Of a stretch of DNA of 64,000 nt, positions 1 through 36,414 are shown piece by piece (the first letter of the stretch is position 1; each line of letters starts with the position of its first letter). This stretch comes from Aptenodytes patagonicus (taxonomy: Eukaryota; Chordata; Aves; Sphenisciformes; Spheniscidae), in NCBI RefSeq assembly GCF_965638725.1, contig NC_134962.1, positions 5,897,501-5,961,500 on the forward strand, in the 5' to 3' direction. Both the position numbers and the translations under genes were made by a program. The notes beneath the pieces are model-generated. The model did no database searches, was not told where the DNA came from, and saw only the letters and a list, made by a program, of their open reading frames with translations.

Positions 1-1762
1 CTGTTCAATACAGCATTTAGAGACTCAGATGTACCTTGACCTTTCTGGAGACTCTTGCGTACTGTTCTGCATGTCACCACGTCCAGACTGGATCACACTT
101 GCCCTAATGAGAAAGCGCATCAAAGACATTTTAAGCCTTGTTTAGCAATAGCTTGGTTTTCACGTTACTCTTCACACTGATGTTTGCCTCCTACTTTTTA
201 TGGGGCTGCTAATCAAAAAAATGTTTAGGAGTGTTGGTGCAACTGTACTGTTACTCTCAGCTAGTAACATTGGTACTGGATGGTGTGTAGCTGTGTTGTA
301 GGAATATGATATGCTGGTGTGATGTTTAATGCAGGAGTGCCGGCAAGAAGTCCTAATGTGACCAACTGAGAGAAGTCTGGAGCAGGATAACGTGTTACAG
401 CTGACCAAGAATGAAGAGAATAAAGTGGGCTAGCATTATCTCTTATCAACACAAATGTGTTCAGCAAAATTGAGAGCTATTGTTTCTCCTTTCCTGCTTT
501 TTCCCTCCACCCATTTGAGTTTCTTAAGAAACAAATCCAACATTCAGAAAACTAACACCTTGATAGCCATGCCAACACACAGGAACTGTGAGTCATTAGA
601 AAGCAGTTCCAGCTTCCTGTGCCAGTGCACTAGAAACCTCTGTGGGAAGATGAGGTTGCACCTACGATATTCTTGCGTTTCATTTTTAGGCAGCTCATTT
701 GGCGAGTGGAAGCTGGCAGAACATTCCCTTTTTACCGTGTGTACACAGCATTTCCTGCACAGCTCCTGCCAACATCAGCAAAGTACACAGCCCTTCTTTA
801 TCAGGTACAATACTCGAAGAGTGATAATTACATGACTAAGAGTGACGCAGAACAAAGCACAGTTGCCACCTAATCCCATCTTAAAAATGGAGGTGGTTTT
901 GTTGTAAATTCACAGCCTTGGGGAACACAGAATCATGAAGGCAGCTTGCCTGCCATTCATGGATCAGTACTGGTCAGCCACGCACATGCTATAGAGGGAC
1001 TTATTCCCCTTACTATTACCAACAGAAGCAAACACAAATGATTCTTTCTTAAGGTTGGTTTTTTTTTTTTGGGGGGGGGGGGGGGAAGGGAAACACATCT
1101 GGTTTCATGGCAGGTGCTATAGCCATTCACTTTCTGACTACTGCTAGGCAATACATGGCTGAAAGAGGAAGTTCCCGTGTCAGACAAGGTCTTAAAATAA
1201 AACTCCACCTGGCTGTCATTTGCCAGAACTTTATGATGATGAAGCGCATACAGATAAAACATGTTCATATGGTCAGTTAAATCTATCTAACCTGACTTTG
1301 CAACACACTAACTTGGTATAATTCGTATAACGTTTGCAGGCGATTTTAATGTACCTGCCAGTGTCACATCCGCTTCCTACTGAAATGGGACAATAATGGT
1401 ATTTGGAACAGAAAAGGAAAGGCACAGGGACTGAGTAGGCAAGCTCTGTAAGTATGCCGGAGACCATGAGCAGAAGGGCCAAGAAACATGTTTAAAAGGG
1501 CGCTGGCCCCGGGTTCCGTAAAGGACTATCTGTCCTACCACATTCCTTACAGACACACCAAATCAGGCTTTTGGATGCCCATTTGTTTGGTGCAGACACA
1601 CAACATTTTACTTTGGATTGGATCAATCCTTAATTTTTCTTTGCACAAGGAAATCAAAAGGGATAACATAGCGCATAGCTTTTCTGAGATATCTGGTTTT
1701 GAGGCCTATTGAAATTTAAATGGCAGCATTTCTTCCATTGCGTGTTTCTGTTGCCTTGCAAG
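1..1762. other. Left flank of the PIEZO relic, no clear gene
   Basis: No secure coding exon. The segment 690-804 has an acceptor (catttttag) and donor (tatcag|gtacaa) and reads AGRTFPFY and LPTSAKYTALLYQ, faintly like the N-terminal PIEZO blade (AGR/K ... LPS.TSSVY), but too weakly to call. Confidence 0.4.
1059..1085. repeat. Poly-T / poly-G tract
   Basis: Twelve T directly followed by fifteen G. Simple sequence, prone to length error. Confidence 0.85.
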
Positions 1763-2025
1763 TTTGGAGCATCGCACATTACAGCTCTTTGACTTTTGTT
1801 CTGCTGATTTGGTCCTGCATCATTTGGATGGCTCGTGACCAGAGGCGTTATGCCCTGCGTAGTTCCCCATTCCTTCCTGCTTATGGGAACATCCTGCTTG
1901 CCCTAAGTTTCTTTGCAGGGCTAAATACCTCCCCGGAGGAATTCTCCCCTACAATCCCACAATCAGTTCTCATCAGCTTTGGCTTAAAACCATACTGACT
2001 GCCAAGCATGCCTCTTGGCATGAAG
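1763..2025 (+). pseudogene. PIEZO relic exon, N-terminal blade, one in-frame stop
   Basis: After a strong pyrimidine-rich acceptor (ttgcaag) the reading frame gives VWSIAHYSSLTFVLLIWSC and later SSPFLPAYGN, matching the PIEZO segment VWSITYHSWLTFVLLLWAC and the following SPF/LLYGN-like stretch. The exon ends at a good donor (atgaag|gtagg). A TGA at 1996-1998 interrupts it 9 codons before the donor. The ATG at 1720 has an in-frame stop just upstream and is not the true start of this segment. Confidence 0.9.
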
Positions 2026-3389
2026 GTAGGAATTCCACACTTTCTCATTCCCTAGTTAGGTGAGACAGTCTTTGAGAGAAAAGGAAAACTGTATTTTTAT
2101 TCTTGTGCTGTATTGTACTCTCCCGCAACCTGCGACACCCAGCTCCATCTGAGGAATGATACAAGGGACAAACCAAAATTACTCGGCGAAAGCATTCATG
2201 AAATACATGCACAGTTTGGCGTGTATGTTTTCAACCTCTGAGGGCAGGCCACCTGCAAAGTCCAATTCCCGTTGTTAAAGCCTGGAAGCTTGTTCCAGGC
2301 CTATCAGTTTATCGTAGTACAAGAATCTGGCTTTGTAAGAGAGCCCAGAGCAGTGAATCTGGAGTCCTGGAGTCTGCACGGGAGAACGCTGTGTTGTTGG
2401 GAACACTTGTCACTTGATCTGTCGAAGACACTTCAACACGGGACGTGGAATTCAGAGGGGATCGTGCTCTATAGCCAAGTTAAACTTTCGTATTCCTATG
2501 CTAACTTAATTAACTGTTAGGGAAAACAGTCATTTGCTGCTACTGAAGAAAAGTGCAGCAATTAGACTTCGCCCCCCATTTTCTGATAATGCTCAGACTC
2601 ACAAAGTTCTGTGCAACACTGACACAAAGCAACTCTTGCCTCCAAAAGCCTTTGCAACCCGAACTCCCTAATTTACACATATATGACATAGCCACTGGCT
2701 CCCCTCTAAAGCATCCTACTTTTTTGACTTCTTTAGATAGAGATCTAGATCCTTACAATCAATTAGTAAACAAGGAAAGGTGTTGCTTGTACACATCTAC
2801 AAGTTCTGTGGAAAAAAATAAGGTGCAAATGTGGTTTAATTGCAGATTCTCTATGAATTCACAGTCTGGCTGTTGCTAAGGCAACATGCGATTGAGAGAC
2901 ATACGAAGGATAAACAAGAATCTCTCCAAGAAGCAATATTGAATGAGAACAGTAAGGAAACAACCCAAGTTCATCCTAGTGTGGTTCTCTGACCTTCTCT
3001 TTAGCGATACGGGTAAGCATTTAGTCTTGCTAAACTAAAGCTGGAACCTGTTATCAAAATACTCTAAGGATTAGCTTTACTAAATATCAGTTGTGCAAAC
3101 ACGAGCACTTGATTTGCGTAGACAGCTACCTGGCTTGTCCGTGCAGTTGCACATGTGCTTTTGCAAACAGCTCAGCCGTGCCTTTGTTTCACAGTATTGG
3201 AATGAGAACAGACTTCTCGGATATCACAAGCTTCCTAACAACATGCGGGGCAGAGATGGGTGACGCATGGATGCTCACAGTAGAGACCTTCCAGCCATTC
3301 TGCGAGCAACACAGAGTATCGTTAAGGACCGTACACAGCTCCTGAAGCAGCAGTTTCTGCTCCCAAGGGCATACCTTTGTTTCCACCAG

Positions 3390-3419
3390 TTGTTCCGCTC
3401 ACTCTGGTTGCTGTTTCGA
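3390..3419 (+). pseudogene. Possible short PIEZO relic exon (LTFWLLLR segment)
   Basis: Between a polypyrimidine acceptor (tttccaccag) and a consensus donor (cga|gtaagt) lie ten codons reading LFRSLWLLFR. This resembles the PIEZO segment LLYTLTFWLLLRQ, which should come next after the 1763-2025 exon. The match is short, so the call is tentative. Confidence 0.35.
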
Positions 3420-3689
3420 GTAAGTGGGTTTTGGACAGACAAGTGGAGGCCTGCCACGTGGAGTAGAAGAAAGCATGTTCTGTGTATTCAGGAGCAGCGA
3501 CCACTTTATGGGACTGCCAGCCTCCTCTGCATTTTTGGCCTCCGTTGCTAGGTAACAATGTTTAAGGCAAGATAAGTCACCTACAAAGAGAGGCATTTGC
3601 AGCCGTAGGCAGGGATAATTATAAAAAAGGTGTCAAGACGGTACGGTGATAGCATCATGCCCAACAGATTTGTTTTCTTCTTATTACAG

Positions 3690-3871
3690 AAGGAGACAAA
3701 CCATATAATCTTCTTTTGGAAGTCCTTGGCTCTCTGCTTAAGGGAATGCTAGTTAAATACTGGAGCTATTTCTGTGTTATCATGTTTTTAATTCTCAGCT
3801 TCAATGGCAGCATAGTGGCATATGAAATACTCTACACTGTGCTCTTTCGGTTCTGTGTGGCTCACTATCAG
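3690..3871 (+). pseudogene. PIEZO relic exon, intact frame
   Basis: This 182-bp exon is fully open: two bases complete a split codon and 60 codons follow. It runs from a clean acceptor (ttattacag) to a perfect donor (tatcag|gtaagc). It reads GDKPYNLLLEVLGSLLKGML, then VKYWSYFCVIMF, SFNGSIVAYEILY and CVAHYQ. This aligns with the PIEZO blade segment containing LLxxLGxLxKGxxxKYWIYVC and SFxGxxVxYKIxY. No lesion is visible. Confidence 0.92.
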
Positions 3872-3985
3872 GTAAGCAGAAAATCAAACTAATAGTGTCC
3901 TTTAGCACAGATTTTCAGGCGGAGTAAACTGTCAAATCTCTATTGAATTTTGGGGGGGGGGGAAGAAAAGTTTCTTTAACTTCAG

Positions 3986-4115
3986 TTTAATTTACACCAT
4001 CGCGCCAGCCTGAATGAGCTGCTGCACAAATCTGTGCTGTGCCGTGCTCCTATTGATCCTGCAGACTGGTGCGGAGGGCTCTGGGAGCGCGATGACTCTT
4101 TTACCCTCTCTCAAG
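3986..4115 (+). pseudogene. PIEZO relic exon, intact frame (PVDPANW segment)
   Basis: Open for 43 codons between an acceptor (taacttcag) and a donor (tctcaag|gtagga). It reads LNELLHKSVLCRAPIDPADW and then CGGLWERDDSFTLSQ, matching the PIEZO motif LLYRGPVDPANWFG. It sits only 114 bp after the previous relic exon although roughly 300 codons of normal PIEZO lie between these two segments, so intervening exons have been lost. Confidence 0.88.
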
Positions 4116-4842
4116 GTAGGAGCCTTATTTTAACAACTGAAAGATTGCTGGAACAATGTCATAGGAGGTCCAAGCAGTACCAAGCTCTGCTGCGTATCAG
4201 GCTGTGGTGTTTATCAAGAGAAGGAAGTCCTTGCAGTATTAGCAGGATTCGCACTGATTTTTTTTTTTTTTTTTTTTTTAAACACAGTTGCACTAACTTT
4301 CATTCTTCTATTTTGTTTGGTTTTCTCTTTCAAAGAGAGCAGAAACATATTTGCCAGTTGGCTAGAAATCATTTAAATGACTTCTGGTTCAGTCAGTAGG
4401 CTGAATAATCCAGTATTTGCATGGGATAAACAGGGTGTAAAAGATACTTTAAAACAAAAATCCTGTTTAGGTCTTTGTGACAGCAAATGGAGGAGAGAGG
4501 AGATTTATGAAACAAATAGTATTTTCTTAGCTCACTTTGCTTTAGGCCCTCTCCCCCTAGGAGCCTTATCACACAACTCCAGAAACATTATTCCTTGAAA
4601 TTGCCACTGGCCCAAATCCTTTAGTTATTGTTACTGCAGTACTACGAGGAAGATCTTCCCATATCACGATATTGCACGTGTTCCAGGCTGGGAATGGGCT
4701 ACAGGTCATCCAGTTCTCACTGGGCTCCTGTTCCTAAAAACAGCCCCAGAGGGCGGTAAACAGAGTTTTGTTTCCTAGCAGAGGAGAGCACAGAACAGCA
4801 TTTTAGACGCTGTGAATTTTGACTATCCTCATCTTTTCTCAG

Positions 4843-5109
4843 TACTTCTTGCTTAGTGTCGCATTTAGGATTGCTTTACCTCTGAGAGCATTTCACACCG
4901 ATCTTGAAGAACCACACAATTATTTTGGGGCTAATGGCAATGGAGATGACAGCGTATCGCCTTCAGTTTGTCTACTAGGGTCAATACCAGCTGCCGCCAC
5001 GACGACAGGGATCGTATTTGAGAGCATTACTTGGGAGCACTTGGACGATGGGTTACTCAGCCGTGTCAAATATTTTGTCAGCTACAGTTTTTACAAATTT
5101 GGATTGGAG
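4843..5109 (+). pseudogene. PIEZO relic exon, intact frame (YKFGLE segment)
   Basis: An acceptor (cttttctcag) at 4842 opens an 89-codon frame ending at gag|gtgagg. The C-terminal half reads VFESITWEHLDDGLLSRVKY then FVSYSFYKFGLE, matching the PIEZO2-type segment ending HLDDG...VKYFINYFFYKFGLE. The N-terminal half is more diverged, and the exon start is less certain because its phase does not match the preceding relic exon. Confidence 0.88.
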
Positions 5110-5697
5110 GTGAGGAAATGTAAGGAGAGGAGGAGTCTGCTTGGGAAGTGGGCACCAGCAGCAGTTTGCTGAGGCATTAAAACATCCGTAGCAAACTCAG
5201 TTAAACAGAAGCCAATTTCTGATGCTGTAAGCATACACAGCAGCAGCAAGGTACAGATGTCTTCTCTTCCCTTGCTCTCTCCCGTAGGGTATCAGTGATA
5301 TCAGACACTGCAGGTGCACACTGTACTCTGAGGGTTGCACAACACAGCAGGAGGAGGATTACGGTATCTGGGGTTGTCATCAGTTCTCAGGGCTATCACC
5401 CACTTGTACAGAAAAACAGGATATTGCTTTTAATGTTTCACTCTGTAAATAACATTGCTTTCTGACTTCTGTAAGCACAGGTCTCACTAATATGGCAAAA
5501 TTTTATGCCACTGTATTTATACAAGTAAACTCCAAGTATAGACACTCTTACTCCAGGATTCTTTTTTTTTTGCTTAAGTGTTTCTTAAAACTGTTCTCAA
5601 GCTGCACAAGCCAAGTCAGGGTAATTTTCTAAATGACAGTACATTGTAACCTACAAAGCATGCCTTCTTGTTTACTTGGCTCACTGCGTTCTTGCAG

Positions 5698-5902
5698 ATG
5701 CGCCTCACTGCTGCCATCAATGTTATACAGCACCATATGGGTTTCTATGTGCTGCTCCATGTATGTTGGGCGATCTATCTGTTGTGGCACCAGAGGAGGA
5801 AAGCAGTGGCTGAAGTCCAGCCAAGATATTATTGTTTCCTGGCCACTGTCATGGCCTTCCAATATTTTCTGTGTCTTGGTCTGTCTCCTGCTCTCTGCAA
5901 AG
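5698..5902 (+). pseudogene. PIEZO relic exon, intact frame (LCLGxPPALC segment)
   Basis: An acceptor (cttgcag) at 5697 is followed by 68 open codons plus one base before the donor gcaaag|gtttgt. It reads MRLTAAINVIQHHMGFYVLL, then RRKAVAEVQPRYYCFL and QYFLCLGLSPALCK. This matches PIEZO (FLMAVNVIGQRM..., RRxxAIAxxWPxYCxFLA, QYLLCLGMPPALC). Phases at both ends agree with the neighbouring relic exons. Confidence 0.93.
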
Positions 5903-7249
5903 GTTTGTGCAGTGCAATTTTTAGGTTTGGAAAACTAAGAACGCAGAAAAGACCCAAGAAAGAACTGTGCAAAGCACAGCAGAGAAGGGCTGGACGGTTA
6001 CTGCCCTTCCAGCTCTGCAAGAGGAGAGCACCTACAGGGCAAAGCAAGAGCAGGAGGCAGGATCACAGTCAATAGTGCCCCTTGCTGTTCTTTGAGCTCC
6101 CACGGGATGCTTGTTCAAGAGCAGTGGCAGGCAGGTGAGAGGACCCCACCAGCAAGTGGTTGCAAACAGCCCTCCAAGCCTCAGGTCACCAAGGCAGTTT
6201 CCTCAGGATTCGTTTTCATCTGCCCAACAGTCAGAAAAGCAGCAATCAACTGTGATCTGCATGATAGTCACCAAAATCTGGTCATGCTCCGGAGACATGC
6301 TTTTTCTCTCTGTTCCCCTTCAAGCAGCCTCCCCTCCCTTTCTCCCCTGCATCCTAAGCACCCATGTTTAAAGAGGGGTTAATTCCTCATGGTAGAAAAT
6401 CACCATCCAAATCAAAAGTTTCCAAAGCCGACAGCTAAGACGTTAGGCTGAGGCCCACATACAAAAATGAGTCAACAACACTATTATGCTCCTGACAACT
6501 TTAAGGCCACAATTAAAATGTCTCTTTGCACGCCACATTCTGCTGGAAGCAAAGGACACACGGTGCATTTTGGAAACCTGTAACCCAAGTGTATAAAATA
6601 GCAGTCACTGCTGTAACCCATTCTCCCATTGGTAGCCTTTCTTTCCCTCTACAAAGCAAAATGAGGAGCGTAGGACTGAGTTCCTACTCTAGCACAGCTG
6701 ACTCCGAGTCCTCTCCCTGCCCACAAGCAGCCTGGACACCAGCATTCAACCACCATTCCGTAGAGCCCAAAGAGTGGCAGAAGGTGGCAGCCACTGCAAT
6801 GAAATGTTTAAAGCAAGGAAGAATAAAGGGGGAAGGGATATCCCAGAGCTCAGTTAGCAACTGGCAGAGTTCAGCTAGTGCTAACTAATGACAAGAAGAG
6901 ACCAGAAAGCATCTTGGAATAGACCCCAATGAGCTCCTCCTATTATCTCCCCAAATCACCAGTTGCTAGGCACTGAACCGCACGCAGAGCATGCAGCTGT
7001 AAACATCCATCTTCCTTTACAAAGGCTCCTGTTGGCTTTTCCCAGGGCTGAAGTGGACTCACATAGCATCTCCCATCACTTTTCACCGGCATTAGAGCAC
7101 TGTGAAGGTAGGTGCATGTTTACGGGCAGCTCTGCATGTCTCACCAGACACATCTTTTTCCTGTAGTGAAATGTCCGTGTTCCTACATTACAAGTACAGA
7201 AACTGGTTTGAGGCATTGTATGTGATGAATAAAACCCCTCTGCTAATAG

Positions 7250-7341
7250 CTTACCTAGGGAGGGGCTCTCCCTGGCCCATCCATTCCAACCTGGTTGAAT
7301 GGCTCTACCTGCCTGATTTTGCAGACAGACCTGAAGCCACC
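7250..7341 (+). pseudogene. PIEZO relic exon truncated by a stop (WLYLPDF segment)
   Basis: After an acceptor (tgctaatag) in the expected phase, the frame reads AYLGRGSPWPIHSNLVEW then LYLPDFADRPEAT, matching PIEZO DYPWRW...IKWLYLPDF. A TAG at 7342-7344 ends it and no donor is visible, so the 3' part of this exon is decayed. Confidence 0.88.
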
Positions 7342-7403
7342 TAGCGCAATCCTACAGCTAAAGCTAAACTGCGACATGCTCTCTGGCTCTTCTGTCTTTC
7401 CAG

Positions 7404-7569
7404 CTGACTTTTGACTTCTGCTTTCTGCCTCCCTCCAGTGGCAAGTACTGAAGGACAACAGTAAAGCTTGAGTAAGAACACGGGCAGGAGGCAATGTGGA
7501 GATCGGTCATGATTTAGACCTGGCTGCTCTCAGCCACTACAGTCCTGCACCAAACGTGGTGCACTGCAG
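7404..7569 (+). pseudogene. PIEZO relic exon with two in-frame stops
   Basis: Acceptor tctttccag, donor tgcag|gtgaga. In the aligned frame it reads DF, TGA (7412-7414), LLLSASLQWQVLKDNSKA, TGA (7469-7471), VRTRAGGNVEIGHDLD and SPAPNVVHCR. PIEZO has DFMLLLCASLQ, NKAAVRIMAGDNVEI and NPVPDFIHCR at the same places. Both stops fall inside an otherwise gap-free alignment, which makes them convincing nonsense changes. Confidence 0.9.
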
Positions 7570-8862
7570 GTGAGAGCCAGGGAGCTGTTACAGGTGGAGA
7601 GGAAGGATCTTTTGGTACTGACTGAGGACATTGCAGAAGAGAAAGGCAAATACTACCAGCTCAGCCAGGACTAACTGAGAGACTGCTGTTCTGCACAGCA
7701 GATGCTATCATGGACTCTTCTTTCTTCCATTATCTCTCATAAGATGTTTTTTAGGCTAATTTTACATATGTTTTGTGATTTTGTGTGGGTGGTTTTTTGG
7801 TTTTGGGGTTTTTTTTTCCCCATTTATCCTGGATATCCTACCATATCATTTCCAGAAAAATCAAGAACTGATTGCAATTTTCTTGAGTCATTACCTTACA
7901 TTTGACAGCTGTATCTTCAACACATAGTCTTAGTCTGAAGAAATTGGGAGACGCTCCCATTTCTCTTGACAGTTCGCTCTACCATTTAATGACTTTTCTC
8001 CCTTTAAATAAAAAGGTAACCCAGTGTTTTCAAGCTCTTCTCCCACACCGCAGTTCTAGTATTAACAATCCAGCAGAGTGCCCATGTCTTACATACTTTG
8101 GAAACAGGCAAATCACCATCTAATTATGTGAAGCCATAATATCAGAGAATGGGCTACTAAAGAATCCCCAATGATACATCAAAACAATATACCATACAAA
8201 AATTTTGAGCATTTTTAGGTATAGCTCATGCTGCATGGAAAGTTTCCAAACAGCACTTTTCTCTATACGACATGTCTACAATGAGTAGATAAAAATATTT
8301 ATGAAATCTAAGTAATCTTTAAAAGCAGCATGCAAATCTTTGAACTCCTTTTGCTCGATGGTAGTGCTGTCTTGGGATCACAATTCCGTAATTCTGAAAA
8401 GTGGAAGGGTTTGGCAAGCGTATTGTCACAATTAGGAGTATATTTATGCATTCAGAAAACAGCAGCGTTTAAAAAAGAAAACCCCACCTGTTCTATGAGG
8501 ACTATTGGGGAACATCGTCTGAGCCCTTCTATTGGGCTCCTGTGATTTACCGCAACTTGTGCGGCTTACTACAAGTCTGGTTCTTCCCTCTCTCCTACTA
8601 CTAGTCTGTTCTATTGGTAGAATCTAACACCTAATGCCAGGCTTTTGTCATCAGACTCTATCAACGAGCAGACTAACGTTATTGCGAAATCTCCCAATGT
8701 ACTGCTAAGAGCTAGGCTAACGGTCCTGGAATCTACCAAATTGATAACCATAGTCAACTGTTCTGGTTTAGCATGGTCAGCTCCTTTGTGGCAACCCAGG
8801 GGTGGCTGCCCACTACCCAGAGGAGCATTTCACGAGCAGTCAGACTCGTTTCACACCTACAG

Positions 8863-8956
8863 AGGAGCCGAGCTGTTTGCAATCAAGCTGAAGAAAGATG
8901 TGTTGCACAGAGTGGAGGAAGAGAAGAAATCCCTACAGGCTATGAGAAGACAGCAA
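8863..8956 (+). pseudogene. PIEZO relic exon (RGAELF coiled segment)
   Basis: Open frame reading RGAELFAIKLKKDVLHRVEE then EKKSLQAMRRQQ, matching the PIEZO cytosolic segment RGAELF...ARIEEEKKSMDQLKRQM. The acceptor cacctacag is reasonable; the donor (caa|gtctcc) is weak. The several PIEZO exons expected between 7569 and here, covering multiple membrane helices, were not found. Confidence 0.8.
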
Positions 8957-10910
8957 GTCTCCTGCTCCTTTAAAACTGAATTGTAGAATACACTGTGTAT
9001 CCAGCTGGTGAGCATTTCATCTTTTTGCTTCTCCCTGCCTGTTTGCTTCTTAGAGTGTAGCTGGCTCATCCCTGGTCCCATTCGTCCCTCTGACCTATCC
9101 CCGAGCCACAAGCTGTTAGCCTGGCATGGTGGCTGCTACCTCGGAGGATCTGTCTGTGCTCACCAAGGTGCTGTTTTTCTGCTAGGAGACACCTGTCTGT
9201 TCTGTCCAAAGGGATGGTGGCTTCTTCAGTGATTTGCAGCCAAGGGCAAGCGGCTCAGTGCTCAGATCGAGGCCATCTGCACATTAAGGCTTTAGTTGAT
9301 ACCATAATTGCACTGGTGCAAACAGCTAGCATAAACACACTGCGTTAGCGTAAACTGGGATTGACCCCTGTATTTTCTGTCACGGGCTCTCCAAAAAGCC
9401 CTGGCACTAAGACAATATGTTCTGTAGACATACGGGTGTGAAAGCCTTACAATAAACAGAGCCCATTAGAGTCCTCCATTGGAGATGCCTCTCTGCAGAT
9501 GAAGAGAAGGCAAAGTAGTAGAACTTCCCTTGAAGAGCGAGGGGAAGAATGTTAGATCAAGATCTGCAAAGTGACCCTGATCCGTGGCCCAGCAGGGATG
9601 GAACAGGGTTGTCCTGGCCCGTGTTTGCCTGCCTGGGCGCTACACCACCATTTCTTGGCAGAGCACCATTAGGGACAGCATGTGGGCTTTCCATGTTGGA
9701 ATAACGAGGCGCATTTTGATTTTACAGTTAAGACTGAGTGAAGCCTTCTCAATGCCTTTCTAGGTGAACAAAGATTGACCAAACATTTCACGTTATCTGC
9801 TGCAGAATCTCACAGATGTTTCCTTGCAGAAACCTTAGGCAGAATACCAAATGTTTCAACATCACATACAAAGCTGGTCCAGAGCCAAACCTTTACGCTG
9901 TTGTTTTGTGTTTGTCTATAGTATGGCATGTGCCTGTCAAATCCGCTTCCTGTTTCGGATATTAGATCTCGGGATGGAGAGCTTCCAAATACTAGCCAGG
10001 TCCAAAGTAAGCTGTGCTCCGCAAAAATAAAAACAATAATATCAGAAGAAGTATAAATACGCAGATGAATAATTGTCTTTTTATTATTTCCTGGCTTGCA
10101 AGCTTACATGTATTCATAGGAGGGGGGCAATTTTAAAAGACATATGCTAAGTTCGTGCTGGCCAAAGAAATGAAAGTCTCTGTTACTCTCACAGCCTTTA
10201 TATCTTACATGTCAAAGTGATATCCAACAAAATATGCATTTAAGACCCATCCCCATCCCTTACGGTATTCATACAATGGGCTTTGGATTAGGTTTGCGAG
10301 TTTGTCCACTGCTAAGTCTGTTGAAGACAAAGGGAATGCTATTTTGCTGTCACCGGCAGTATTTCAGACAGATATGAAGAGTGGCTAAGTGTTATGAAAT
10401 TGCTTGTGAAGTACGATTCAGAAAGTAGCATGTTGGTGGCATACCCAGTCTTATGAGAAAGAGTGTGACAGTCCGATGGGGAAGAAAGTTATGCGTGTGA
10501 ATGAGAATGCCCATAACAAACGAACAACTGGTATTTTAAACACCAGACCTAGAGCCAGCGTCTCCTTGGCTTTAGTCTTAACCTTACGTCTTTGGGAAAA
10601 ATACTTCCAGATTTGCAATCTGGATTTATTCATTAGGGATGGTTTGACAGGAAATAAAAAATGTTGTAAAATACAATATAATAAAAGTATTTGACTAGTT
10701 GAAAAAAATTTTAGAATAAAAGATTAACATTTCTCACTTCTTAAGTAATTTCTAAATCAAATCTGAGTTTTCTGATCATTTCTATAACACTGAAGTCGCA
10801 GACTCTATCCCACAGAGTTGTCACGAGGACAGTGTTTGTAAGATACTGAATTCAGATAAAGTGCACACCTGATTTAGAGCACTTACTGCCTTAATTTTGT
10901 TTTCAACCAG

Positions 10911-11014
10911 CGGGATTAAACTAATCAAAATAAGAGAGAAGAAATGTGAGAGCTTGAAGCAAACCGCTAGCCCTATGATCCCGCCAGAAGAAGAGCAGCA
11001 TCTCCAAGATGCAG
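10911..11014 (+). pseudogene. PIEZO relic exon (basic intracellular linker)
   Basis: Acceptor tttcaaccag and donor gatgcag|gtaaag bracket an open frame reading GIKLIKIREKKCESLKQ and PPEEEQHLQD. The basic start resembles the PIEZO segment DRIKARQQKYKKGKE followed by an acidic stretch. The match is short but its position just before the WWxPW exon supports it. Confidence 0.6.
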
Positions 11015-11071
11015 GTAAAGCAGCAGCATCATGTTGTGTCTCTGTGCCCGTTGTCTCCTTGGGTTCTGCAG

Positions 11072-11135
11072 AAAAATGATGGCAAAAAGAATTGGTGGCA
11101 ACCCTGGCTGAACCACACCTCGGGGAAGTTAAAAG
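11072..11135 (+). pseudogene. PIEZO relic exon (WWxPW motif)
   Basis: After an acceptor (gggttctgcag) the frame reads NDGKKNWWQPWLNHTSGKLK, a clear match to the conserved PIEZO linker motif KKKQWWRPWVDHASMVRSGD. No convincing donor is seen, so the 3' end is approximate. Confidence 0.8.
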
Positions 11136-11651
11136 CCAACGAGCCGTTACTAGTAGGAAAGATGATGTGTAGAAGTGGAAGCAACACACCCTGCCGGAGA
11201 CGTGTCTCTGCACGCAGCCATGACCTGCGGGAACGAAACCCTGCTGCTCTCCAAGAGCTGCACCAAGAGCTGCCCTCATTTAAGGGGAGTGTGTGTATTT
11301 TAGCAAGATGTGTACAATTTTCCACTCTGTCCCTCCCAAACACTACCGTTGCCCAACATACTTCAATGTACGTGGAAAACTATTTTCTTCCCAGATGTTC
11401 CTATTTAGAGCTCAATAACTGCCTTAAACTATATTAAAATGACATTAAAATACTAATAAAGAGAATAAAAACATTAACTGTATGTTCCATTATGCTATAG
11501 TTAACTTGTACTGTAAAGTTAAACATATGCACTAAGATGGCCTACAGCACACGCGTGATTTACAGGCACAGTTCCTTTGGATTTTGAGGAAAACTGTCTT
11601 TCTAAATCATCTACACAACTCTGAACTCCACTGTTTTTCAAACTGTTTTAG

Positions 11652-11724
11652 CGATTTGAACTGGTGGTTAGCACCTCTTTGAGGCTGAGCATGAGGAGGA
11701 CCCAGGGCACACAGGAAAGCACAG
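11652..11724 (+). pseudogene. PIEZO relic exon (STVLRIE segment)
   Basis: Acceptor ctgttttag, donor agcacag|gtgaga. The 24 open codons read RFELVVSTSLRLSMRRTQGT, resembling the PIEZO2 segment ISTVLRIERCMLTREIKKG. The identity is modest, but splice sites and order support it. Confidence 0.6.
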
Positions 11725-11807
11725 GTGAGAGATTTGCCACTTGGCAAGAGCCTTCTGTTATCTCTGTCGAAAATTATCACCGTCTATTAATTTTTTTTTC
11801 CTGGTAG

Positions 11808-12086
11808 GTTCAGAGGTGTCCAAAAGAACACATTTGAGCCACGATGCTGAAGAAGTAGAGGAGATGAAGTGGCAGAAGAGATGGAAGGTGAAGACAGCGT
11901 CAAAGGCAAGATGCCAGAGATGAATCCTTCACCTGCTTCCTCTGCTCGGTTTCCCAGCCTGGAGAACTGTTCATTAGCTGCAGCAGATCATATCCTTTCC
12001 CCATCAATTCAGAGGAGCGAAGAAGCAGGCAGGCCATTAAATGAAGTTCCTGTTACGATCGCTGCCAGTGAACTGTTTCTGAACAG
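11808..12086 (+). pseudogene. PIEZO relic exon with frameshift and GC-type donor (TASELLL segment)
   Basis: An acceptor (cctggtag) is followed by an acidic stretch and, at the end, EVPVTIAASELFLNR. This matches the PIEZO2 segment LTASELLLKKM that precedes FHDDELEE. The frame entering from the previous exon hits TGA at 11921, while the frame reaching the donor is shifted by one, so an indel lies near 11850. The best donor is aacag|gcaaga, a GC-AG type site, and the phase then joins correctly to the 12796 exon. Confidence 0.75.
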
Positions 12087-12795
12087 GCAAGAACAACCTA
12101 AGAGCAAACCCACCTGTTGCAATATGCATGTAATCAGTGCAAAACATCTGAAAAAAAAAATATTATAATAGCACTTAATAGTTTCCAGTCCTCCAAGAAG
12201 GACTTGACTCACGTCTGGACAAAAAAGACGGTGTAAATCAGTTGTCCTAAATCGGCGTTACTGCATTGACAGAGCACGTGTGCCAGTTGTGAGCGCACGT
12301 CCGCCTCTCAGGACTACAGCCTCTGCCAGGGCTATCGGCAGTGCCATGTGCAGGAACTGATGCTCATTTTCACGCTGTACATTGTCTCTATGGCCTTTTA
12401 AAGAAAATTAAACTTTTGACAAAGTCATCTGGCAACTGTTTAGTGCCCTGTTTGCTGTGTAAGTGTAAACACACCCTTGTAACTTAGGAGGGTTACTGAG
12501 CAGGTGGAATTTAGATGATTTAACTCATATCCTTTTAGTACCTATAAATCAGCCTACTATAAATCTAGTATCCTGGACTGTAATTATCAGTGACTGAGTC
12601 AGCAAAAGCTTTTATGAAAGACTTGAGTAACATGCTGTTACCACCTCACACCTGCAGTTCTTAAGAAGTTCCATTATGCCATCCCCTCGTCTGATTTATT
12701 TAATCATCTGGGTTAAAAAAGCTGTTTAGCAGTCTCACACCCTTTTTCCTAGAAAATAAAAGCGATTCATTTGAACTCCCCCCCCGGTGGTTCAG

Positions 12796-13029
12796 GATAT
12801 TTCATGACAATGAACTGGAAGAGTCAGAGAAGTTTTATCAGTCTGCCTTGTATAATGCTATGGTGTCCAAGTCAGGAAGGCTTTGCTATTGCGTGATCAT
12901 TCTGAATCACAGGATTTCTGCTTCAATTCTCACTTTGGTTCTACCCATTATTTTTTTTTTTTCTGGGTCATTTTGTCTGTTCCAAGGCCAACAGACTCCT
13001 TCTGGATGACAGCTATTATTTATACACAG
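12796..13029 (+). pseudogene. PIEZO relic exon with poly-T frameshift (FHDDELEESEKFY segment)
   Basis: Acceptor ggttcag, donor acacag|gtacat. It reads IFHDNELEESEKFY, then LYNAMVSKSGRLCYCVIILN, SILTLVLPII and, one frame over, WVILSVPRPTDSFWMTAIIY. PIEZO2 has FHDDELEESEKFY, CYFVIILNHMVSAS and WAMLSVPRPSRRFWMMAIVY. The frame breaks in a 12-T run at 12951-12962, and about nine codons are deleted after FY. Confidence 0.9.
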
Positions 13030-13404
13030 GTACATTTTTCTTACTACTGCTAAAGTTTTTCTTAGTATTGAAGTGAGTAACTTTGCAAACAAGACATTTT
13101 TAAAGTACAATGAATGTCCTTTAGGACCAATGTTAGAGTGGATTAGCAAGACTTAAAACATTTTGTTCGTGAACTGTAGATAATTCATTGACTTGAAAAT
13201 GACACCTAAATTGAGTAAAAAGAGAAAATATTTATCTACTCTAAAGTTTCACTGGCTTTCAGAGCAAGAGTTGCTCTCCAGAGTTTCAGACCATTAAGAA
13301 TGTCTGTTGGAACCATCCCCTGTACTTAAAAGATCTGCAGATTCCTCTGAGAATAATTATAGTCCAAAATTCCAGCTATTTTTTTATTATTTTTCCCTCT
13401 CTAG

Positions 13405-13594
13405 ATAACAGTAATTGTCAAATATTTTCAGAGTTTGGATTTTTTTTCCCTGGACCACTGAATTGTATTGTGCCATCAATGCAGAAGAACCATTCGTTCT
13501 GCCAAATATTGTTGGGATTGAGAAGGCGGCTGGCTACGTGCACTTTGATCTCATCCAGCTGCTTGCTTTGTTGTTTCACAGGTCAATCCTGAAG
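13405..13594 (+). pseudogene. PIEZO relic exon with poly-T frameshift (DLIQLLALFFHRSILK segment)
   Basis: Acceptor ccctctctag, donor ctgaag|gtaaat. The first part reads TVIVKYFQSLDFF. After an 8-T run (13440-13447) the frame shifts and continues FFPWTTELYC and PNIVGIEKAAGYVHFDLIQL then LALLFHRSILK. This is almost PIEZO2-identical over GYVLYDLIQLLALFFHRSILK. Confidence 0.92.
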
Positions 13595-14061
13595 GTAAAT
13601 TTTCATACATATGGAGAGGAATTTACTTTTTCTCTTAACTCCGATGCACGTTTGCAGTTAAATGTACTTTGTCTTAATTTTTGTTCTAAATCCAAAATAG
13701 ACTTTTTTTGCTTTAAGGAATATGGCCTCAGCATCCAAACTTTGATTTGAAAGTGAATTTTAGATCTGTAAGAGGCTAAATCACATACCTAAGCAGCATT
13801 GTCCCTCCTTCTCATACTACATCACAGAGAGACCTGAATAAGAGATACACTTTATGCCCTTTAGCTGACTGCTTTGCTCTACCTCTAGGGACATGATGGG
13901 AGTTTCCTCTGATCTACAGCCACGCTTCTTTGTCTGCTTGCTTTTTGAGTCAGCCTTAACAAAGAGGTCAAATCTGTTACTTTTAAGTAGTCACATTTTT
14001 TTTCTTTAAAATGAAATTCTGTAAAATACTCCAGCAAATCCTATGCTCTGCTCATTTCCAG

Positions 14062-14215
14062 GAGTTTAACAGAAACCACGTGGCTCGGCTTTGGTACTTG
14101 GTCAAATGCATCTATTTTGGTTTGTCAGACTGTCGGATCAAGTGTAGCTATAGCCCAGTCCAGTCCTAGGCAACATTCTGATGGAGATACAGTGGCATCA
14201 ACCCTTATTTCAGGG
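14062..14215 (+). pseudogene. PIEZO relic exon with two stops (WYFVKCIYFGLSAYQIRCGY segment)
   Basis: Acceptor catttccag. It reads EFNRNHVARLWYLVKCIYFG then LSDCRIKCSYSP, matching PIEZO FSQNLVAQLWYFVKCVYFGL and the QIRCGYPTR stretch. TAG at 14167-14169 and TGA at 14179-14181 follow in frame where PIEZO continues LGNFLTK. It ends near caggg|gtaag. The preceding several exons of PIEZO (last blade unit and beam region) are missing. Confidence 0.9.
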
Positions 14216-15625
14216 GTAAGCACAGCAGTGACATTCAGCTTTTACAACAGAGTATGAAAACTGCAAGCCCAGTCCTACCCCCGAAGGAGCCCACAGTACA
14301 GTCCTGCCGTAGGTCAGCCCAGGACATTTGCAATTTATGGAAAGTGCACCAGAAATTCTTTGCAGAAAACAAAAACTATGTCTGAATGCTATTGTCTGAC
14401 CCCTATATAACAACCACGTTTCTTACTGCTATGGCAAGCCTTCCCTCTTCCTTCATGGAGGACTTGTCCAATTCTAAATAATTCCTCCACGAGTATTTCA
14501 GACACACGGTCTCATTTCTGGCAGCCTCCCCTACGCTAAATTCTCTCTGGTGCCTGGAACAGCTGCTTATTCCTCCAGCTTGGGCCTTTGAGATGTAAAT
14601 AGTGTAATGCGACTTCAAGAGGCAAGGAAATATTAGCAGAATTTAATGTAAATATTGTATAAATCATCCCAAAATAGCATGGCCACGGGATGAGCCAAAG
14701 ACACTAACTGAAAGTTAAACAGGCTAAGTAAATACAGACTAAATATATTCCCCTCCTGGAATTGCCACTGGAATGGATCCAGAGAGGAAATAGGTTAAAA
14801 TGCAGTCTTGTGGCAGTGATATTAAAAACCCATTGGCCCATTTGGTGACATTTATAATGAATTTTATGTACTCCATACATTTTTAATACATGCCGAGTTA
14901 AATATTATCAAATCTATAAAAAGATTATGGAAAAAAATATGTCTGGTTTCATATGGATGGACACTGCCTGGAACTCTCTCTGTGGGTTTTGTGTAAGAGA
15001 AGTGTTTGAAAGAAAACATGAAAGGAAAAAAATAAAAAAAAACCCCGCAGTGCAGTTTTTGAAAACTGTTACTTGCCCATTTGGAGCCTAAAAGTCATCA
15101 CACATCAAGGCAACAGAATTTCCAGGACGTGAACCACAACGGGGACCAAGGAATGAGATGTATTAATTCCATCCCTTGGACGTGCAAATGGAGAAAAATG
15201 AATTTGATTGTCTAGCGTGGCTTTGTGCAGCTTCTGATTCAGTGTAGTGTAAGTATAAAAGGACCCTTTTCTTCTATGGATGCTTTTTTAGCAGGTCCCT
15301 AGCCGCTGCTGTAGCAAACATGATTAACGGTAGTTCTGTGCATAGGTACTAGAAGATAAACAGATGCCCTAACTCACCTAGAACAGTCCTGGAATACAGG
15401 CGCTTGTCTTGATGTCCCAAAGACTACTTTTCAAAAAGTTACTTTGTCCAAAATTTTGTCCAAATTACAAACAGGATGGGATTTCCATGCCTGCCACTCT
15501 CATGCTGTACCCAAAGAAAGCAGTAAGCCCCCAGACACCCAGCCTGGCTCAGCTACCCAGCAGAATCCAAACCAGAAGCTACAGGTAAAGTCCAACACAC
15601 CCAAAGGGAACCAAGATGGGTCTGA

Positions 15626-15718
15626 ACTGACCCAACTCAGCTTCTCTAGCTGGACCTGTGTGGATAAGATTTATATGTTAACATTTTCATTATGAAAGGT
15701 TGGAGACACTCCAAGAAG
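15626..15718 (+). pseudogene. PIEZO relic exon (SLSSWICVEDIYA segment), frameshifted
   Basis: Reads ELTQLSFSSWTCVDKIYMLT, matching PIEZO TTLSLSSWICVEDIYAHIF. Two extra bases near 15690 shift it into KGWRHSKK, the counterpart of KCWRESEK, right before the donor aag|gtgagc. The 5' boundary is approximate. Confidence 0.85.
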
Positions 15719-15804
15719 GTGAGCGACTCCTGTTGTGCAATCCCTTTTCACAAAAGCTTCTGAGACAGCTGTGGCAAATTAACTAAAATTTTCTTTTTTT
15801 GCAG

Positions 15805-15994
15805 AAATATCCTCAGCCTACGGGGCAGGAGAGGAAAATGATTGTGAAATGCAGAATGGGGGGCTGCATTATCCTCGTACTGATCTGTACCGTGTGGCCT
15901 CCTTTGCTCCTTATGCCACTTCTTCAAGTCCATGGCAGGGGTGACCAACCAGCCCCTGGACGTCTCTGTCAGACCCACAAGGAGCGGTTACAGG
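15805..15994 (+). pseudogene. PIEZO relic exon: outer pore helix and start of cap, frameshifted
   Basis: Acceptor tttttttgcag, donor acagg|gtgagg. It reads KYPQPTGQERKMIVKCRMGG, CIILVLICTVWPPLLLMPLL and, one frame over from about 15930, MAGVTNQPLDVSVRPTRSGY. PIEZO has RYPQPRGQKKKKVVKYGMGG, the outer helix, and VAGVINQPLDVSVTITLGGY. The pore-proximal segment is thus recognisable but broken once. Confidence 0.93.
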
Positions 15995-16427
15995 GTGAGG
16001 GGTTCCTCTGACCGAAGCGTAACACACAACTATGAGTTCAAAACTCAACAGCTAAAAGACAACACAGGAGAAAGTCCTTCAACCTTCCTGCTAACTGCAG
16101 GCTGTTCAGTCCTACGTATAAAGCAGCAGGGAGGAAAATGACAGAAGAAAGGCAAGGGAGAATGAGAAATGCGGGTGCAGCGAGTCCCACTTAAGTTTCT
16201 TTCTGCCTTCCAACATCACAGATTTTGTTTGCTTTAGTAAATGCTGTCCCAGATGCAGGAGGAAGTATTTGCAAACACAGTTGGCAGTCAGACCACAGCA
16301 TTCTCCAGAATAGCTTTTTTCACTGTATTTCTGGTAAGGGACTGGCTAATTCACCTCCTCAGGCTACATGTAGCCCTGGTGCTATGAAGGCTGCACTTAA
16401 GAGCACCCTGTCAGACTCTTCTCCGAG

Positions 16428-16520
16428 TCATCATTCACCATGAATTCTCAGCAGAGGGCTTTGATCCCTTTTACTCAAGCAGCATACAACAACCTGACAA
16501 ATCACTATATCCTTCGCCTG
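16428..16520 (+). pseudogene. PIEZO relic exon: cap domain, intact frame
   Basis: All 31 codons are open, reading SSFTMNSQQRALIPFTQAAY then NNLTNHYILRL, between acceptor tctccgag and a perfect donor cctg|gtaagt. It matches the extracellular cap of PIEZO1 (FTMSAQQPSIIPFTAQAYEE) better than PIEZO2, which differs after SAQQ. Confidence 0.9.
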
Positions 16521-17145
16521 GTAAGTGCTGTCCAAGAACCTGACACATATAACACGCGAGTGCAGGACCCCTGTATGATTTAAAGATGCGTACACAGCAC
16601 AGGTCTGGTATTCGTGCATGGCACTGCGCTCACTCCTCTACCAGAGCTCTTGCAGGTATGTTGGTACCATACTCAACCTGGCTAACACACCGCATCCAGC
16701 AGCATACGAGACGCTGTGAAGTGCCGTATCGGCGCATCAGAGGGAGCACACTCATCTCTACTGCACCATGTGAACGCTCTCCCAGGGTCAGTACTGCCCA
16801 GCAAGAATTAATCCCTAAGCAATGTTTTGGGTAGGTCCATCTTTCCTCAGGGACTGAGCCCTCAATAAGACTCTGGTGATGTGCCTGCCCCCAGTCCCCA
16901 ATTCAGACAGCATTTAGTAGTGCCAAAATGTGGTAAAATATGCTCTTAGCTTAATTTGCTCCAAACAAAATACAGCACAGCCCTATGGTAAGGTTTACAA
17001 GTTGAAGATAAATCAAAACATCACAGACAGGTTTTTCCCTGACTGAGCACGTTGGTCTGGGACAATCCATAAAACACCAACTCCTCTTTGCTTTAATAAG
17101 CGAACCAGATCACCCTTGTCCTCCTCTCCCGCGTCTGCCACACAG

Positions 17146-17302
17146 TTCATAGCAAACTACTGCCCAGAGGATGTTGTTGTCACCAAGGTAAAGAGCAGCA
17201 CTGGTCTGCTGGGGACCATCAGCCCCCAGAGCCGGGTGGCCATGGCAGAGGAGTTGCTAACTCACCTGCTGCCTACTTCAGCTTCCACTAGACCATCCTC
17301 AG
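17146..17302 (+). pseudogene. PIEZO relic exon: cap domain, intact frame
   Basis: Open for 52 codons between acceptor tgccacacag and donor tcctcag|gtaaca. It reads FIANYCPEDVVVTKVKSSTG, LLGTISPQSRVAMAEELL. This matches PIEZO1 FISQYSPEDIVTAQIEGSSG, LWRISPPSRAQMKREL. The frame also runs upstream through SATQ (compare LAMQF), so the acceptor may differ. Confidence 0.9.
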
Positions 17303-17899
17303 GTAACAGCAGTACAGCTCCAAGAAGGAAACGAGAAGAAGGAAACGAGAAGACGGAAATCTCCTGGGTGACTGTATTAGCTTGTGCCCAATTGTCAATC
17401 TCCTCTTAAAAGTGCTGGGCCCACAGCTGTAGTAATTTAAGCTCTAATTCCTAGAAAACAACCTTTAGAGGCACCTCCCTGGCTTTGTACTGCTTCTGGA
17501 GCCTGCTCCCAGGTCCTGCGTGACCCTGCTCCGTCTCCTGTGGTTGCTCAGAAGGCAGCCAAGGAGTGGAAGGACATCTGGGAACCTGGAGCTCGGGAGC
17601 CCCCAAGTTTCAGTTCTCTGCTTAGATACTGAGGTGATCTTCAGCAACTCACTGAGCCCTGTGCTGCTTTGTTATCTTTGAAGGGTTGCTCCAGGGTACC
17701 CGGCGGCGTGGAGGACTTGGGCCCTAGCAGAGTTTCAGGAAACGATGCAGGTGCACGCTGCCCACCGTAGGATCGTTTCTATTTCAAGCTGCTTAAGTGG
17801 TACCAGAGGATACTCCAAGTGTAGTCACCTAAACCCACTGAGGTCAACCTCTGGTGTCTGGATCTGTTTCCTGTGAATAACCGTGCTGCTTTGTCACGC

Positions 17900-18110
17900 G
17901 GAGGGGACTGTAAAGCTAAATGTGTTAGTAATTGTAGAGCACTCGGTCAGGACGGCCACAGAGGCAGTAAGAACATCAGACAGCATTTGCAATATGCTCA
18001 TTTCAGGCTGCACAGTGATTAGCAGAAGTGGGTAGCAGCTGCAGAGACCAAATTCCAGCTTTGCTGCTCGATGCAGGCTTATTTCTCTTTGGTAACTATG
18101 CCACATAGTA
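17900..18110 (+). pseudogene. Probable PIEZO inner-helix / C-terminal remnant
   Basis: One frame reads GTVKLNVLVIVEHSVRTATE and later SDSICNML, resembling the PIEZO inner helix and C-terminal start GLYASVVLVIGKFVREFF and HSIMFEE. About 100 bp on, another frame reads AETKFQLCCSMQAYFSLVTM P, weakly resembling the terminal RETGELELEEDLYAKLIFLY. Position and order fit, but the match is degraded and contains stops. Confidence 0.5.
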
Positions 18111-20731
18111 ATTTCTGACACTGAGCATCTGCTACTTCTAAGGCAGTTTTGGGATCTCCCCTTCTGTAGATTGCCTCCAGGTCTCATACCAAGTGCTTCA
18201 GGGCGAATGCTGCAGCAGAAGCTAAAACTGCCCATTGCCTGAAAGTAGGTAAGTAAATCCAGGTGGTGGAAACTGGTCTTGGAGGAACTAAAGTTCTACT
18301 CGTTAGGGGCTTAAGAAACACTGTGAGCTTAAGGGGAACGATCCCCGTGCAAGCTCTGTGAAACACAGAAGAGAAAGAATGATTTATTTGGTAAGTACAG
18401 CTCACAAATCACTGTCTTGTGTAGGTCCTAAGCTTCTGCTCTAGAGAATAGACCTCTTACCTAAACAGAAGGAAATAATGATGTACATTGGGAACAGCAA
18501 GTGATTCTATTATGGAATTGGGGGGAAAAAAAAAAAGCCTTGATTTTTATTTTGTATCTCTGAAACAGAGGAAGCATCGGACCTTTTTACTATTAGGTGT
18601 TGGATTGATTTATTTTAATCTGCTTAAGCAAACTTAACCTGGTTTTCAGTTTTTGATTTCCTAAATATTTATCCCGTTTGCTTTTCAGGTATTTCATATT
18701 AGATTTCTTTAATACTAGATATTTCTTTTTTAAAGATGGCTTCTATTAAGTGCCTTCCAAATTAAATCCAGCAGAATGATATGCTTTGAGACACAGCAAA
18801 ATCAAAGAATATGATAATCAGTCATCAAAATCTAATTTCTGCTTTATCTGGGCTTGCTGCATTCGGTGAGTAACATTAGAATTTAGCCTTATGCCACAAA
18901 ACCGCAGGCTACTTTCTATGTAAAAATCTGCCTCATCTTGGCAAAACACTAAAATTCAAAATTAGAATTGATTAATTTGAAGAGTGTTTCTACAAGATGG
19001 AGATTGAAGACTTGATTTCAGAGCACTGAAATTAGAACATTTTGCCATTAGCTTCAGTGGTCAGACTGAGTCAGCAATGACAATAACTCTTCATCAACAC
19101 GTTTCCCACAACAGTTGTTGGTACCAGAGTGCGCTTGTACCAAGTGTCTAAAATGACCAAAGGCAGAACTCATTTATATATAGATTTCCTAGAACTATGA
19201 TCCTGTGGACCAGGGAACCAAAACAGCAAGGGAGAAGCAAATACAGGAAGTAATGAAGTTCTGGGTTTTTTATTTAAAAAAAAAAAAGAAGTTACATTCT
19301 GCCCAAGAATCAAGTATAGCCACAAAACCAAAATGAAAAACGTTGCTGCTTCTCCCTTCTGCATTAAGCTTTCCATGAGGTCTTTAATCAAAAAGACTCA
19401 TGCCTAAACCAGATGTGTACCTCATTGTTGGAACTCCATCTAAAACCTAGCACCAGTTCTCTCCAGAGATCACCTCCGACACAGGGAAAGGTGTAATTCA
19501 TCAGAACTCAGCTTGACTTTATCTGCAAAGCAGCCAAAAGTGTGTGCTGGGTGGGATTTTTCACCATCAACACTGGTTGAGCCAAGAAATGTTTCCACAG
19601 GCTGACGCTTGAACCACCGGGCAGGGACCAGCACTGATTAAAACTTGGTCACTCTGTTCCCAACTCCGCTGCAGACATTACATAAATTGGGGCAAGTCAT
19701 TTTCCGTGCGTGTCCAAGCCAAACTAGTGCTTCTAAGCTCCTTGTGACTGGCTTATACAGAAACTAATGCTATGCATCCCTGATTACCGTTGAATCAAAC
19801 AAACGAAGTGAATCAGTGTAAGTTCTTCAGAACTACCACAAACCATTCAGTATAAGCTGTTGCCCTGCTAGGTCTGTTTTCAGACGCATGAGTGCTGGGA
19901 AAAGGAATTTGAACGGAGTAATGATGTCGCACACAAACTTTTGGAGCACTCGGTGTTCTCAGAAATGTAAATAACACCATGAAACACCACATGGGATATG
20001 TAAGCTGCTTTAATAATAATAAATTTATGAAGTGGCAAGAAGCCACTCTGCTTTGTAAACCGATTTTACTCAATCACAGTCCCTCTATTTTTTTCCTCAT
20101 TTAACATGAATACATTCTGTAATTTGTATGTGAAAGATTTACGTAGAGATATGTTCTGGACCACTCTCGTTGATTTTACTGGTCAGAAAAACATTAAACA
20201 TGCGGAAACAGCACCTTATTAAAACTATAGGCCTTTTCTCATTACATCTCCTTTGCTGCTAAGCTAAATTGTCACTGAATAAGCCAAGTCTACAGAGGTT
20301 TTTTTCCTTGTCCTGTGTTCTGAGATGTAGTGGGGCCTGCAGAAACGTCTGATAAAACCTCACGTATAATAAGTAATTCAGAAGGCTTTGTAAGCAATAG
20401 CTGCAGTCGCTTCTTCAGACTAGAGAGAGCTTCTCATGCATTAATGCACTTAGTTAGGTCTTGTGAGGAGCTCAGAGGAGGACGTGTCCTCTTCCTGATA
20501 CAGTTAGTTGAGCCTGGACTCTGCACCACTGATATTGTTCAGCAACTGTGTGCACCAATAATTTAAAAACACCAAGAAATCAGGCTGTTTTTATCAGAAA
20601 CAAGTAATAAATCTTATCATGATAGTAAAAAAAAATGGCAATTTCTGATGTGTGACATTTTCATTGCTTGAGAATGAATCAGTGCAAAGTGAGGTAACCC
20701 ATGCACCCCGTCACTTAGGGCTGGGGGCGCA
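18111..20731. other. Interval between the PIEZO relic and the NPEPL1 stop
   Basis: Contains the presumed NPEPL1 3' UTR on the minus strand and AT-rich unique sequence. I see no coding exon, RNA gene or recognisable repeat. Confidence 0.5.
20009..20014 (-). other. Candidate NPEPL1 poly(A) signal ATTAAA
   Basis: The first ATTAAA on the minus strand I found after the NPEPL1 stop, about 720 bp downstream. I found no AATAAA nearer; one lies further on at 19269-19274. Which is used cannot be told from sequence alone. Confidence 0.3.

Positions 20732-36414
<15,683 letters not shown>

Follow-up and report, generated by a model that had tools for sequence, protein, structure and literature searches.

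PIEZO-like segments at the locus

The window analysed here is a 64,000 nt stretch of the Aptenodytes patagonicus genome (C14:5897501-5961500; assembly of 1.352 Gb in 618 contigs). It contains the relic of a gene of the PIEZO family, which is present as 18 plus-strand segments between positions 1763 and 19217 that match PIEZO in collinear order. The initial annotation, made from the sequence alone, had described about 18 such segments, and this count stands. The relic (plus strand, 5.8993-5.9167 Mb) is situated between GNAS (minus strand, 5.7216-5.8203 Mb) and NPEPL1 and is convergent with NPEPL1, as had also been proposed.

A human PIEZO1 probe of 2521 amino acids, its sequence written from recall, yields collinear plus-strand tblastn matches that extend from residue 429 at position 1750 to residue 2505 at 19173 (best E 3e-14); with the probe reversed, no match falls below E 0.44. 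Plus-strand frames 1-3 of positions 1-20000 were also compared with Pfam and PDB, with stops entered as X. Pfam families appear in order on this strand: Piezo_TM1-24 (5.6e-28 and 9.3e-18), THU_Piezo1 (3e-17), Piezo_THU9_anchor (1.3e-9) and a weak Piezo_cap (0.003). PDB chains of PIEZO1 and PIEZO2 match frames 1 and 2 (up to 1.5e-42), frame 3 of positions 1-14999 has no PDB match at E 1, and no Piezo family is found by Pfam on the minus strand of positions 1-19801. The reversed probe and the empty minus strand rule out chance similarity.

When joined, the N-terminal exons reach 366 bits against human PIEZO2 (E 2.7e-108) and 283 bits against human PIEZO1; for the joined C-terminal exons the values are 310 (E 2.3e-91) and 281 bits. 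A Drosophila Piezo probe produces 11 matches at E ≤1, eight of which (E ≤0.005) are on the plus strand and in order; the match at 19173 has E 0.34 and two further matches are out of place. A frameshift-tolerant alignment of 19 candidate segments to PIEZO1 and PIEZO2 is sensible for 18 of them, the exception being 17860-18100. Homology extends through the blade, the anchor and the cap in a single order, and identification as an unprocessed PIEZO pseudogene, judged from sequence and introns, is as good as certain.

Exon structure

Exon residue numbers are those of PIEZO1 unless PIEZO2 is named, and all exons are on the plus strand. E1 (1763-2025) encodes residues 433-519 and has an in-frame TGA at 1996. 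It is followed by E2 (2846-2968, residues 520-562) and E3 (3690-3871, residues ∼555-617), the latter with acceptor and donor as in the PIEZO2 gene of the same assembly (A. patagonicus PIEZO2). E4 (3986-4115, residues ∼897-928) is uncertain at both ends. The gap between E3 and E4 is 114 bp, and residues ∼618-896 are gone between them. E5 (4910-5109, residues 930-997) shows a stop at 4976 and a frameshift near 4994-5000, E6 (5698-5902, residues 998-1065) matches a PDB chain, E7 (7250-7341) encodes residues 1066-1098, and E8 (7404-7569, residues 1101-1152) has stops at 7412 and 7469. E9 (8863-8952) represents the PIEZO2 RGAELF exon and has a GC donor instead of GT.

The second half of the relic begins with E10 (11084-11122), a weak segment of 13 codons that carries a WWxPWxxH motif. 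E11 (12796-13029) is the PIEZO2-like FHDDELEESEKFY exon, with a frameshift in a T-run near 12950, and E12 (13412-13594, residues ∼1740-1801) has a frameshift at ∼13438. Residues ∼1802-2055 are gone before E13 (14062-14215, residues 2056-2109), which has insertions or deletions (indels) or stops past 14148. E14 (15617-15718, residues 2124-2157) contains a stop at 15623 and frameshifts, and E15 (15805-15970, residues 2158-2212), the outer-helix exon, has a frameshift near 15922. The cap starts in E16 (16428-16508, residues 2221-2247) and continues in E17 (17137-17302, residues 2253-2294 onward; frameshift past 17256). In the human PIEZO1 search two segments score weakly by themselves, E10 at E 0.34 and E16 at E 0.018. 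A 14-bp unit is repeated 2.7 times at 17322-17359, just past the E17 donor.

The last coding piece is E19 (19173-19217), FIYRFPRTMILWTRE, which is what remains of the C-terminal exon, its final 15 conserved codons, and matches PIEZO1 at E 0.12 and the last exon of A. patagonicus PIEZO2 at E 0.001. The 3′ end had been placed at 18110. This boundary has to be moved, and a candidate inner-helix exon at 17.9-18.1 kb is unsupported, as that region gives no significant match in the alignment or with A. patagonicus PIEZO2 exon probes.

E1-E17 have 34 exon boundaries. Twenty-four could be placed in the relic, all at the positions found in A. patagonicus PIEZO2. A script located 23 of these in both genes, and the 24th, the E7 acceptor, was taken directly from the nucleotide sequence. 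Flanking codons, compared by eye, served to judge equivalence. Intron phases agree at those E6-E9 boundaries that were inspected by eye, and indels of one or two bases adjoin the E1 and E13 acceptors. The other ten boundaries are lost, shifted or uncertain (the E2 donor, both ends of E4 and E10, the donors of E7, E15 and E16, and the acceptors of E14 and E17). Because the placed boundaries coincide with those of A. patagonicus PIEZO2 and introns are kept, the relic is not a retrocopy.

Additional exons are probable upstream of the window. In a search of E1 and the 8 kb that precede the window, a probe of human PIEZO2 residues 1-509 (plus 11) matches four ordered plus-strand pieces, given here in window coordinates: PIEZO2 residues 1-19, starting with Met, at -4383 (C14:5893117; E 0.17); residues 35-54 at -2080 (E 0.009), ending in a GT donor; residues 50-79 at -1585 (E 0.020), bounded by TTTCAG as acceptor and GTAAGG as donor; and residues 111-147 at -352 (E 0.044). 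The chain of matches amounts to 125 bits, which was reached by one of 200 block-shuffled probes, and the reversed probe gives 56 bits. The E values of these four pieces are 0.14 to 2.7 when all 144 kb of the region are searched. With PIEZO1 probes the upstream stretch seemed to contain no N-terminal exons; the probable ones came to light with PIEZO2 as probe. Each piece is weak alone; together they are probable N-terminal exons, and the relic would then extend from ∼C14:5893117 to 5916717.

Loss of function

In-frame stops are found at 1996, 4976, 7412, 7469 and 15623, and frameshifts in E5, E11, E12, E13, E14, E15 and E17. With PIEZO1 and Drosophila Piezo probes, the missing blocks correspond to PIEZO1 residues ∼618-896, 1153-1324, 1802-2055 and most of 2300-2504, a count that leaves out the poorly conserved linkers around E10. 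A. patagonicus PIEZO2 exon probes for the last three blocks, searched against the window and its flanks (50 kb on the upstream side, 30 kb on the downstream side), detect nothing in place save the final 15 codons; the best out-of-place match has E 0.009. The inner helix and C-terminus of A. patagonicus PIEZO2 are in a single exon, and the relic keeps only the end of that exon. It is without the inner pore helix and most of the C-terminal domain, and no open reading frame that could encode a complete channel with these parts is left. As it stands the relic cannot make a channel and, from its sequence, the gene is dead.

Two of the frameshifts, near 12950 and 13438, are situated in T-runs, where sequencing error could have produced them. 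Homopolymer error as the sole cause of the damage is rejected, as the other lesions, including all five stops, are outside T-runs.

Relationship to PIEZO1 and PIEZO2

PIEZO2 exons of A. patagonicus are on the minus strand of contig C2, within the fetched 58.36-58.46 Mb, and PIEZO1 exons are on the plus strand of contig C11 at 1.952-1.970 Mb. With separate PIEZO1 and PIEZO2 genes in the same genome, the relic is a third locus and neither gene itself. In an alignment of 747 complete columns, the identity of the relic is 53.7% with A. patagonicus PIEZO2 and 53.0% with human PIEZO2, and 47.3% and 48.1% with A. patagonicus and human PIEZO1, respectively. Human PIEZO1 and PIEZO2 are 58.6% identical over the same columns.

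Trees were made with the relic, the human and A. patagonicus PIEZO2 and PIEZO1 proteins, and Drosophila Piezo as single outgroup. The best tree places the relic as sister to the two PIEZO2 sequences (Shimodaira-Hasegawa-like approximate likelihood ratio test 97.8, ultrafast bootstrap 97), in a position that predates the tetrapod splits, and groups the human and A. patagonicus PIEZO1 sequences with each other. By this tree the relic would have separated from PIEZO2 before the human/bird divergence.

Gene neighbourhood

On C14 the order is GNAS exons (-), relic (+), NPEPL1 (-), STX16 (-) and APCDD1L (6.0483-6.0519 Mb, +). On C2 it is APCDD1 (58.0296-58.0486 Mb, -), PIEZO2 (-) and GNAL (58.9958-59.1215 Mb, +). 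Reversed, C2 reads GNAL (-), PIEZO2 (+), APCDD1 (+), which is the order and orientation of GNAS, relic and APCDD1L. The comparison covers these three pairs, and the neighbours of PIEZO2 have their counterparts around the relic in GNAS/GNAL and APCDD1L/APCDD1. The names of these two pairs are those we take to apply from similarity, domain content and human gene order. To our knowledge there is no PIEZO gene at the NPEPL1-GNAS locus in mammals.

Within the window, the gene convergent with the relic is presumably NPEPL1, from its domain (22506-34988, minus strand, the span of M17 aminopeptidase domain matches only). The next neighbour, presumably STX16 from its domain and the gene order, is seen as the two halves of a SNARE domain (41526-43950, minus strand, the span of those only). 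GC-rich bins (0.58) at 36001-38000 and 54001-56000 may be the CpG-island promoters of these two genes, NPEPL1 and STX16. APCDD1L was sought inside the window; it has no domain match there and is located 87 kb beyond. Scans with Rfam and for tRNAs were negative. A G-alpha first-exon-like stretch ending in KREYKQTHRLLLLG is located ∼17.4 kb upstream of the window, at C14:5880058-5880171 (minus strand, E 2.6e-5). It differs from the canonical GNAS exon 1 at C14:5820185-5820346 and resembles what we take to be an alternative first exon of the XL-alpha-s type.

Selection and time of loss

Differences between the relic and A. patagonicus PIEZO2 at codon positions 1, 2 and 3 are 0.332, 0.227 and 0.565 over 699 codons, a set that includes two short poor matches of 16 and 7 codons. 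This pattern is a mark of protein-level selection. In neutral simulations, a count of ∼5 stops in ∼810 codons is matched by 0.05-0.08 substitutions per site after inactivation. Neutral decay alone to 60% amino-acid identity is expected to leave ∼16 stops, and six or fewer were seen in none of 200 runs. The stops are too few for neutral decay, so most of the divergence arose while the gene worked, and its death looks late.

The avian neutral rate is near 2e-9 per site per year. A rough estimate places inactivation some tens of millions of years ago; the segments were picked by detectability, and this figure may be biased downwards. As death appears late relative to the duplication, live orthologues are to be expected in other vertebrates.

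Origin of the relic

A third PIEZO gene of vertebrates, named PIEZO3 here, very probably left the relic as its unprocessed pseudogene. PIEZO3 would be an ohnolog of PIEZO2 that arose in the two successive whole-genome duplications (2R), was long under selection and was then lost. The 2R duplications would have left PIEZO3 in a GNAS-APCDD1L block, sister to the GNAL-PIEZO2-APCDD1 block. The ancestral protein, to judge from its family, was presumably a mechanically gated trimeric cation channel. Codon positions and stop density show that for the greater part of its existence it was constrained at the protein level. Stops, frameshifts and deletions of exon blocks, including the pore helix, mark its later loss of function. 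With the tree and the paralogon behind it, origin as a 2R ohnolog of PIEZO2 appears well supported, and orthologues are needed.

Several observations weigh against this origin. The alternative placements are weakly rejected: in the approximately unbiased (AU) test the relic as sister to PIEZO1 has 0.042 and a basal relic 0.019, and the Shimodaira-Hasegawa (SH) test rejects neither (0.47 and 0.45). In four-taxon trees the AU values of the two alternatives are 0.018-0.097, above 0.05 in some models and exon subsets. Parsimony-informative columns are few (16 for PIEZO2, 14 for a basal position, 9 for PIEZO1), the relic branch is long (0.68), and the short segments E16 and E7 are nearer PIEZO1. 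The age is read from a single-outgroup tree and synteny. In addition, the whole-genome PIEZO search used the Piezo_cap profile, which did not pick up the relic, and other relics may be present elsewhere.

The AU and SH values, the parsimony columns and the closeness of E16 and E7 to PIEZO1 would speak for a third deep paralogue, one that is sister to PIEZO1 or predates the PIEZO1/PIEZO2 split rather than an ohnolog of PIEZO2. Such an origin is nevertheless unlikely, as in four-taxon trees the PIEZO2-sister topology is best in 6/6 models, with the subset of 11 strong exons and in 18/18 leave-one-exon-out runs, and the genes on either side (GNAL/GNAS and APCDD1/APCDD1L) favour PIEZO2. Long-branch attraction would draw the relic to Drosophila, away from PIEZO2.

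A later segmental copy of PIEZO2, made in amniotes or birds and decaying neutrally from birth, would agree with the relic being closest to PIEZO2. This is very improbable. The AU test rejects nesting with A. patagonicus PIEZO2 (4.7e-5) or human PIEZO2 (3.7e-5), though the SH values of 0.08 and 0.08 are no rejection. Human and A. patagonicus PIEZO2 are 90.5% identical over the columns compared, the relic shares a long E1 loop with PIEZO1 and Drosophila whereas the loop of either PIEZO2 is short, and the low number of stops and the strong third-position bias do not fit neutral decay. That a shortened gene or non-coding transcript is still expressed is extremely improbable, despite many canonical splice sites, in view of stops and frameshifts in many exons and the loss of the pore and clasp blocks.

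If the relic is PIEZO3, its wider history can be proposed with less assurance, as somewhat more probable than its opposite: jawed vertebrates would have inherited three PIEZOs, and PIEZO3, head to head with GNAS, would have functioned for hundreds of millions of years, remaining alive in some lineages and being lost in mammals and, late, in the bird-like lineage.

Relation to known PIEZO genes and significance

Among known genes, the relic is closest to PIEZO2, of which the PDB has human and mouse chains. It resembles PIEZO2 in exon order, in its placed splice positions, in the FHDDELEESEKFY exon and in its flanks. It differs from PIEZO2 in ∼46% of compared residues, in the longer E1 loop, and in being dead, with stops and missing blocks. 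To PIEZO1 it is homologous along its preserved length, and it looks PIEZO1-like in the length of the E1 loop and in a portion of the cap; identity is lower (47-48%), and A. patagonicus PIEZO1 is on another contig.

Zebrafish piezo2a and piezo2b, usually regarded as duplicates of PIEZO2, resemble the relic in providing a third vertebrate piezo gene, a comparison by name alone and not by sequence. Either could be a live orthologue of the relic, and a surviving PIEZO3 perhaps bears the name piezo2a, piezo2b or piezo2-like. A section of one paper names piezo1, piezo2a and piezo2b in zebrafish (PMC10801085), and an excerpt of another describes the vertebrate PIEZO family as two genes from a single duplication (PMC11526382). 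The term 'piezo3' is used once in a passage where the context is PIEZO2 (PMC10854220); as a whole word it occurs in two of 5.39 million papers, the other being on a tactile sensor array (PMC3297154). The available portions of PMC7016824 and PMC6779468 make no mention of a third PIEZO ohnolog. The literature search left out subscription papers and genome annotations, and elsewhere the gene may be annotated under another name.

From the relic it would seem that the PIEZO channels of early vertebrates outnumbered today's two, and a third ohnolog alters the history of the PIEZO family. The NPEPL1-GNAS interval provides the address at which to seek live PIEZO3 orthologues. Loss of PIEZO3 may be tied to changes in mechanosensation, and comparative studies of touch and proprioception would need to consider a lost channel.

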